This document shows, piece by piece, positions 34,036 to 34,190 of a stretch of DNA of 64,000 nucleotides (position 1 is its first letter; each line of letters begins with the position of its first letter). The stretch comes from Bradyrhizobium sp. CCBAU 53421 (GTDB lineage: Bacteria > Pseudomonadota > Alphaproteobacteria > Rhizobiales > Xanthobacteraceae). The notes beneath the pieces are model-generated. The model did no database searches, was not told the DNA's origin, and was given only the letters and a program-made list of their open reading frames with translations. The stretch covers positions 558,001-622,000 of the forward strand of contig NZ_CP030047.1 in assembly GCF_015291625.1 (NCBI RefSeq), read 5' to 3'. The translations under genes and the position numbers were made by a program.

Positions 34036-34185
34036 CTGTCCCTGTGATGCGAGGTCTGTTGGCGCAGCCTCGTGCAACTGTTCAGGTTTGTAGATGGAAC
34101 GGGCGGGAGACCGAGCCGGCTCACGGCGTCAAGCGCCAAGGACCCAACGGCTTCCCGCCCACCCTCATCATGACAGACTTCCAAG
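34036..34185 (-). ncRNA. candidate IS110 bridge RNA
   Basis: Read on the minus strand, this leader folds into two loops in the order known for IS621. Loop 1 (target): stem GGGCGGGA/TCCCGCCC (34160-34153 with 34108-34101), inner hairpin GGCG-CTTGA-CGCC, left guide TGGGTCC (34146-34140) identical to the left target flank, right guide GCCGG (34119-34115) complementary to the right flank CCGGC. Loop 2 (donor): left guide AACAGTTGC (34082-34074) identical to the element end at 33090-33082, hairpin CGAGG/CCTCG, right guide CACAGG (34046-34041) complementary to the other end CCTGTG. All guides meet the core CC in the same register. RNA ends are approximate. Confidence 0.75.
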
Positions 34186-34190
34186 ACACA

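Follow-up and report, generated by a model that had tools for sequence, protein, structure and literature searches.

A CC-core IS110-group element of Bradyrhizobium with a predicted bridge RNA in its leader

The insertion sequence described here, from Bradyrhizobium sp. CCBAU 53421, is very probably an IS110-group element whose leader encodes a bridge RNA and which exchanges strands at a CC dinucleotide. This reading best accounts for the boundaries, the clean insertion of one copy, a structure that is conserved, guides that covary with target and ends, and the CC core, as far as sequence comparison reveals them. The element lies in the window, by which we mean the whole 64,000-nt stretch of DNA analysed (G000:C1:558001-622000), in a genome of 9.26 Mb on one contig. 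Target and donor positions are numbered with the prefixes t and d, and feature coordinates are collected in the table.

The genome contained seven near-identical copies (n = 7), whose identity broke at the two cores. Non-coding sequence amounted to 160 nt at the left end, upstream of the transposase gene (tnp), and 6 nt at the right end, which is the layout of the IS110 group. No long subterminal inverted repeats were found, ACA/TGT around the core being the sole repeat seen by eye. Six of the seven copies were located at TGGGTC-CC-GGC or TGGGTC-CC-GGG, at the arm of a REP-like repeat that is bipartite, about 120 bp long and present in many copies across Bradyrhizobium. The remaining copy, L007, was in a different palindromic sequence, and its site was nonetheless TGGGTC-CC-GGC. 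In the window (positions 33060-33082 and 34193-34312), the element splits one arm of this bipartite repeat, which is of the type GTCGTCC...GGACCCATA / TATGGGTCC...GGGACGAC. For copy L005, element-free orthologous sites were identified in four relatives (G004, G003, G044 and G042), in which the target was continuous and the core occurred once; G042 was without two bases at t1-t2, and G044 had a longer palindrome loop on the right. The empty site of L007 was not found whole among 80 genomes. Scarless insertion, without target duplication beyond the core, was observed for copy L005.

The recombinase matched the solved structures of IS621 (8wt6, E 5.8e-36; 33% identity) and ISCro4 (9t56, E 1.6e-35). 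The residues aligned with IS621 D11, E60, D102, D105 and S241 were all retained, S241 being catalytic according to the accessible text of PMC11208158. The protein has the DEDD RuvC-like domain and the Tnp domain with catalytic serine of the IS110 group; with this domain pair, the end layout and scarless insertion, the element is an IS110-group insertion sequence.

Features of the element and its insertion site, in window positions
Feature	Position	Strand	Remarks
Right target flank GGCCTGC	33074..33080	-	from own-genome copies
Right core CC	33081..33082	-	from 7 own-genome copies
IS110-group element, core to core	33081..34192	-	1112 bp including both CC cores; identity breaks there in 7 own-genome copies
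Left-donor sequence TAACAGTTG	33083..33091	-	overlaps the recombinase TAA stop
DEDD recombinase gene	33089..34030	-	313 aa, GTG start, TAA stop; Pfam DEDD_Tnp_IS110 and Transposase_20
Predicted bridge RNA body, target and donor loop	34034..34163	-	covariance model R1, 152.1 bits, own sequence being part of the training set
Donor-loop basal stem, 3' arm CAGG	34035..34038	-	helix 4; possible second role as ribosome-binding site
Possible donor-side handshake guide GA	34039..34040	-	would pair with t7 = C and t6 = T; by analogy with IS621
Right donor guide CACAGG	34041..34046	-	complementary to CC-TGTG
Donor-loop inner stem, 3' arm CAG-A-CCTCG	34050..34058	-	helix 5
Donor-loop inner stem, 5' arm CGAGGCTG	34065..34072	-	helix 5
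Left donor guide AACAGTTGC	34074..34082	-	equals element right end plus one core base
Donor-loop basal stem, 5' arm CCTG	34083..34086	-	helix 4
Target-loop basal stem, 3' arm TCCCGCCCGT	34099..34108	-	helix 1
Possible target-side handshake guide CT	34114..34115	-	C would pair with d7 = G, T unpaired with d6; by analogy with IS621
Right target guide GAGCCGG	34116..34122	-	pairs with t14-t8; window copy has a mismatch at t13 and G-U at t14
Hairpin separating target guides, GGCG-CTTGA-CGCC	34125..34137	-	helix 3, 97.4% of cells paired
Left target guide, 9 positions, TTGGGTCCT	34139..34147	-	t2-t8 = TGGGTCC; t1 mismatch in window copy; U at t9, at most a wobble with the bottom-strand G
Target-loop basal stem, 5' arm GTGGGCGGGA	34153..34162	-	helix 1, two-sided change in 10/10 pairs
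Possible -10 CATGAT	34167..34172	-	17 nt downstream of TTGCCT, which would arise across the core in the circle
Left core CC	34191..34192	-	from 7 own-genome copies
Left target flank ATGGGTC	34193..34199	-	REP-like arm; from own-genome copies
Candidate residues D59, R75, N231, R249			window numbering; IS621 D66, R82, N238, R258

Relatives were collected from 195 genomes of the genus (148 matched, E <=0.001) and 297 genomes of the order Hyphomicrobiales (34 matched, E <=1e-30). Both ends were resolved in 33 of 40 groups; G110, G243a and G257 were not anchored, and an end was unresolved in G138, G193b, G146a and G146b (13 copies). The one TGA counted inside the matches of L181 (G309) and L107 (G119) proved to be the normal stop codon at about residue 313, the match extending beyond it.

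A covariance model (R1) built from 19 leaders found matches upstream of the gene at 53 of 62 loci (E <=0.001); the training sequences had come from 19 of the loci, and L146 and L204 denote a single place. The other two matches in the window had E >1. A whole-leader alignment (A1) was dropped for a trimmed version. The modelled structure comprises 28 pairs, with the four guides in two internal loops, and 26 of the 28 pairs showed two-sided changes among the 53 sequences. Paired cells made up 92.9% of 1394 (53 matches), against 69.9% after shuffling and 33-45% in slid versions, and a two-sided change was found in 326 cells, against 97 and at most 51, respectively; in this alignment, fitted to the model and so favouring it, related sequences were counted separately. 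The margin of two-sided-change cells over both controls is large. A second-round model with filters off (R2) recovered eight of the nine loci missed by R1 at E <=0.001, including IS621, and L228 stayed undetected. Both IS621 leaders, which were not in the R2 training set, were matched at 444-583 with the gene beginning at 589 (E 9e-4, 22.5 bits). The IS621 RNA had been missed by R1 and was found by R2 with filters off alone, with an E-value that is rough. A structured RNA with target and donor loops, as expected of a bridge-RNA system of the IS621 type, is predicted here, the model that also finds IS621 being R2 and not R1. The predicted minimum-energy fold of the single sequence differed from the covariation structure and did not leave clean guide loops: the target guides were partly paired together, and the 3' end was paired with the 5' leader. 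An Rfam search at E <=1 returned four matches, every one far below its gathering score.

An earlier note, made from the window alone, had proposed an IS110 bridge RNA with target and donor guides, and these analyses support it, through the 26 of 28 pairs with two-sided change and the guide pairing reported below. All segments that it quoted are present on the minus strand, with TGGGTCC at 34140-34146, GCCGG at 34116-34120, AACAGTTGC at 34074-34082 and CACAGG at 34041-34046, as are the stem segments GGGCGGGA/TCCCGCCC (within 34153-34162 and 34099-34108) and CGAGG/CCTCG (within 34065-34072 and 34050-34058). Its assignment of the stems needs revision in part: GGGCGGGA/TCCCGCCC does belong to the basal stem of the target loop, but the donor loop has CCTG/CAGG as its basal stem and encloses CGAGG/CCTCG as part of an inner stem-loop. 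The right target guide, which it gave as GCCGG, does pair with core and flank, but is longer, GAGCCGG (7 nt), with GCCGG as its 3' five bases. The register that it read, one core base under the left guides and two under the right, holds in the window copy but is not a family rule, as the left target guide covers both core bases in six groups and the left donor guide covers none in G419, G423 and G313. The note had named two outcomes that would speak against the bridge RNA, guides in relatives that do not covary with flanks and ends, and a fold that does not present the segments in loops. Neither was seen: the guides followed diverse targets, and the covariation-supported structure places all four of them in internal loops.

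Leaders were first compared with flanks by a blind scan. In 28 of 33 groups a leader scored 11-12 of 12 on its own flanks, with means of 8.0-9.6 on the flanks of other groups; the window group (G000) scored 12/12 on its own flanks, and a mean of 8.1 with a maximum of 9 on those of others. The low scorers were G184 (8/12; a shortened recombinase, at a site that does not resemble the guides) and G470, G177, G396 and G243b (10/12 each), and for these five 54-464 of 500 shuffles were equally good. Besides G184, seven groups (G189, G119, G470, G177, G396, G233 and G243b) had a foreign flank that equalled or exceeded their own, partly because target types are common to groups. The blind scan was exploratory and search-maximised, the best place being chosen, and guide positions were therefore fixed by the structure in the next analysis (A4). 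G172 (leader identical to that of G017, not in the model search) and G243b (below the cut-off) were left out, giving 31 groups with 19 distinct guide pairs, and permutation was applied on the target side only. Own-flank pairing was found at 216 of 228 guide positions, whereas permuted assignments reached a mean of 111.5 and a maximum of 161, and none of 20,000 was as high. With the core positions removed, 160 of 171 positions paired (permuted mean 63.9; 0/20,000 reached this). G177 and G190 were shifted by hand by one base, to take back a guide base that the model alignment had assigned to the hairpin; G184, whose guide pair is common to G178, was not a representative, and G257 was excluded from guide counts because of its C-rich flanks and one nested copy.

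Scored copy by copy, with G172 judged by the guides of G017, the left guide was perfect over t2-t8 in 68 of 73 CC-clade copies; the right guide was perfect over t8-t12 in 52 and matched at least four of five positions in 72. In CT-core relatives the left guide was perfect in 25 of 51 copies and the right guide in 47 of 51. Two CC-clade copies fitted poorly, L179 of G313 (4/7 and 4/5) and L078 of G184 (3/7 and 3/5; shortened recombinase). The L078 site, TCGAGGT-CC-GCTTC, mismatches its guides and possibly reflects off-target insertion or later rearrangement. Pairing of the right target guide extended beyond five bases, at t14 in 16 and at t13 in 13 of 19 representatives. The targets that the guides followed were varied, including GTGCAC-CC-GGA, TGGATT-CC-GGC, TAAATC-CT-ACG and ACGCCC-CT-CTGGT. 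In G313, four of five copies were at GTGCAC-CC-GG, with no REP and with the loop segments GTGCACC / TCCGG; in G366, the target TAAATC-CT-ACG was matched by TAAATCC / CGTAG; and in G419, the flank CCGGT stood opposite the guide ACCGG.

On the donor side, the left guide equalled d1-d7 in 19 of 19 representatives, though the ends vary (AGTTG, AGTCG, AGATG, GGATA, CGGTT). The right donor guide paired well in CC rows; in many CT rows it formed four pairs and one wobble, and in G470 it showed no pairing in the assumed register. Guides covary with both target and donor, as expected of a bridge-RNA system of the IS621 type, the permutation having been made on the target side.

These covariation data bear on the possibility that the leader RNA mainly regulates the transposase, as an attenuator or sRNA, with guiding secondary. 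The right donor guide and the basal arm of the donor loop (CACAGGGACAGG, window 34035-34046, minus strand) lie at the expected ribosome-binding site of the recombinase gene, and since the two overlap, RNA folding could mask translation; an sRNA role was also considered for ISPpu9, according to the accessible text of PMC11208160. A regulatory role gives no reason to expect covariation with sequence that flanks the element, and we give it a very small chance of being the main function.

The putative handshake positions, assigned by analogy with IS621, fit in part. The donor-loop base beside the right guide could pair with t7 in 16 of 19 representatives, with G-U in the other three, and the equivalent target-loop base with d7 in 19 of 19; these are uncontrolled counts on nearly invariant bases, G233 being the sole row in which both vary along with the bases that they pair with. 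At the second handshake base, pairing was often absent. A junction promoter, TTGCCT-17-CATGAT, is a weak candidate judged by its sequence: it was the best site, in the same place, in 18 of 18 CC groups, and taken singly it did not exceed shuffles, 37 of 300 being as good for G000 and up to 186 of 300 for others.

The CC core was found at both junctions in 73 of 73 copies from 18 clade groups, and by eye in L248/G708 as well. A CT core was found in 53 copies of 15 outgroup groups and, by eye, in IS621. The junction anchors contained the core, so that a copy with another core would appear as unresolved; there was none among the 73 CC-clade copies, and the four unresolved outgroup groups could hide cores other than CC and CT. 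In 12 CC groups, all Bradyrhizobium (G172 through its identical leader), the left target guide has U at t9, for which wobble with the bottom-strand G is the sole pairing possible; in G102, G419, G423, G391, G313 and G337 this base is C. It is conceivable that CC is a misread boundary and that the true core is CT-like or longer, as the run CCC in the native target calls for care with the register, and in one copy (L087) t10 equals d10. Yet the bases at t7 and d7 were unlike in all 73 CC-clade copies, and those at t10 and d10 in 72, as in G423 with TGGATT-CC-TGTG and CAGTTG-CC-GGCC, so that the string common to both junctions is exactly CC. Moreover, CC is native to the target at the L005 empty sites, and the right guides of both loops end in GG in CC rows and mostly in AG in CT rows. 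A misread core is accordingly very unlikely.

Another idea is that the protein or the REP structure chooses the target and that leader similarity is a by-product of insertion into an abundant repeat; many insertions are indeed in the REP-like repeat, and 94 exact TGGGTCCCGG sites are left in the genome (54 forward, 40 reverse) against 23 for a backwards-read control pattern, but guides change with targets over the 19 distinct guide pairs, conservation peaks at t2-t11 and not across the whole repeat, and G102 holds CC-core (L085-L088) and CT-core (L135-L138) elements with different targets in one genome; this alternative is very improbable. At 57 Bradyrhizobium-group insertions, t2-t11 were identical in 55-57 (t8-t9 by anchoring), t1 in 47 and t12 in 38, and this fall-off at t1 and t12 marks the limits of the guides.

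RNA-guided strand exchange would proceed as follows. The 160-nt leader would encode a bridge RNA of about 130 nt that has one loop for binding the target and another for the donor. The circular element would expose AACAGTTG-CC-TGTGTC (expected junction sequence AACAGTTGCCTGTGTC), and donor and target would be held by the two loops of the RNA, by analogy with IS621 as far as that system is described in the sources available. Recombinase and RNA would synapse the circle with TGGGTC-CC-GG sites, of which many belong to arms of the REP-like bipartite repeat. Strand exchange at the CC dinucleotide would follow, and nothing outside the core would be duplicated. Transcription from the junction promoter, RNA binding and cleavage after the core are likewise steps that we infer by analogy.

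In the accessible parts of its descriptions (PMC11208160, PMC11208158), IS621 of E. coli resembles this element in its DEDD and Tnp domains, a long left end with the RNA, a REP-type target, two internal loops, a left guide that equals the top strand and a complementary right guide, and a 9-position left target guide. Unlike there, the core is CC and not CT, the right target guide pairs over up to 7 nt and not 4, the right end is 6 nt, and the RNA body is about 130 nt with no 5' stem-loop evident by eye before the target loop. ISCro4 / IS622 (PMC13199778, in the portion available) belongs to the same protein family at a similar distance and is likened here by protein alone. IS110-type seekRNA elements such as ISEc21 share, by the description accessible in PMC11187229, a non-coding region before tnp and short segments complementary to each target strand; in that model a short RNA selects the target, whereas here the donor loop covaries too. 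The CT-core relatives (G366, G470, G189, G054 and others) have the same RNA fold and guide logic and are found by the same model, but differ in the CT core and in right guides that mostly end in AG.

Upstream of L204 (same locus as L146), a partial left end and 1609-1732 indicated a G257 element nested in the apparent bridge-RNA gene of another copy; the resident was broken inside its left-target-guide sequence (CCCGTCCC|CC), and the rest of the RNA gene followed the right end. Since left-guide DNA is itself a half-target, IS110-group elements of this kind may insert into their own guide genes. In L180 (G313), upstream of the gene, the first 52 bases of the left end were duplicated in tandem, joined exactly at GTGCAC|CC, which is common to flank and guide; self-insertion with later collapse and slippage between the 8-base repeats are the two possible origins.

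A CT core with an almost invariant second T, a common but not defining trait of IS621-type bridge-RNA systems, is not found here, a departure on which the earlier note was silent. In the available text of PMC11208158, the second core T is called 'almost invariant' and is read by G63, and the G facing the first core base is read by N84. The published core changes AT, GT and TT, in the part of PMC11208160 that could be consulted, reprogrammed the first core base alone and kept the second T; as the set in that source was filtered for 'CT core guides', other cores are probably present in its data. A description of a CC core was not found in searches of the open-licence PubMed Central literature. 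The CC-core clade appears, from its sequences, to be a natural core-switched variant of a kind of system itself known since 2024.

The recombinase tree united the CC rows, including G708, at 93/86, below the tool's star threshold of 95/80, and adjoined them to G366/G470/G257 at 99/95. CC members ranged from 44% (G708) to 98% identity; with CC G708 at 44-45% and CT G366 at 45%, identity alone does not separate CC from CT. In a class-wide sample, 2 of 385 genomes matched at E <=1e-65, and in a phylum-wide sample 4 of 398 at E <=1e-62, the element's own genome included in both; the CT core of G309 was parsed and those of G972 and G1112 were read by eye. At these strict cut-offs, G708 was the sole addition to the CC clade, which among the sampled genomes is mainly in the window's own order.

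Twelve alignment columns passed the filter for a protein signature, and four were named as being 18/18 and rarest outside. IS621 positions 66, 82, 238 and 258 were D, R, N and R in 18 of 18 CC proteins and in 0, 3, 3 and 1 of 29 others, counted without G184 and with 13 of the 29 comparison rows presumed CT, their junctions not parsed. D66, R82 and N238 are close in the sequence to G63, N84 and S241, published as core or catalytic residues. The signature is a lead only, confounded with descent, which explains it equally well. Core, both right guides and perhaps the recombinase may have changed together on the CC branch.

Bridge recombinases are studied as genome-rearrangement tools. A clade with a CC core and matched guides makes the question of what sets the second core base directly testable, and the material for this comprises four candidate residues, two matched element sets and both kinds of element in G102, which form a natural matched pair. 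The clade also provides a compact RNA body and natural mismatch-tolerance data at 73 insertions. We consider it an even chance that the second core base, regarded as a fixed T on account of being read by the protein, switched to C once, in an alphaproteobacterial clade, in a concerted change that involved both DNA cores, the right guides of the two loops (AG to GG) and residues D66, R82, N238 and R258; natural bridge recombinases would then have extended the core space.
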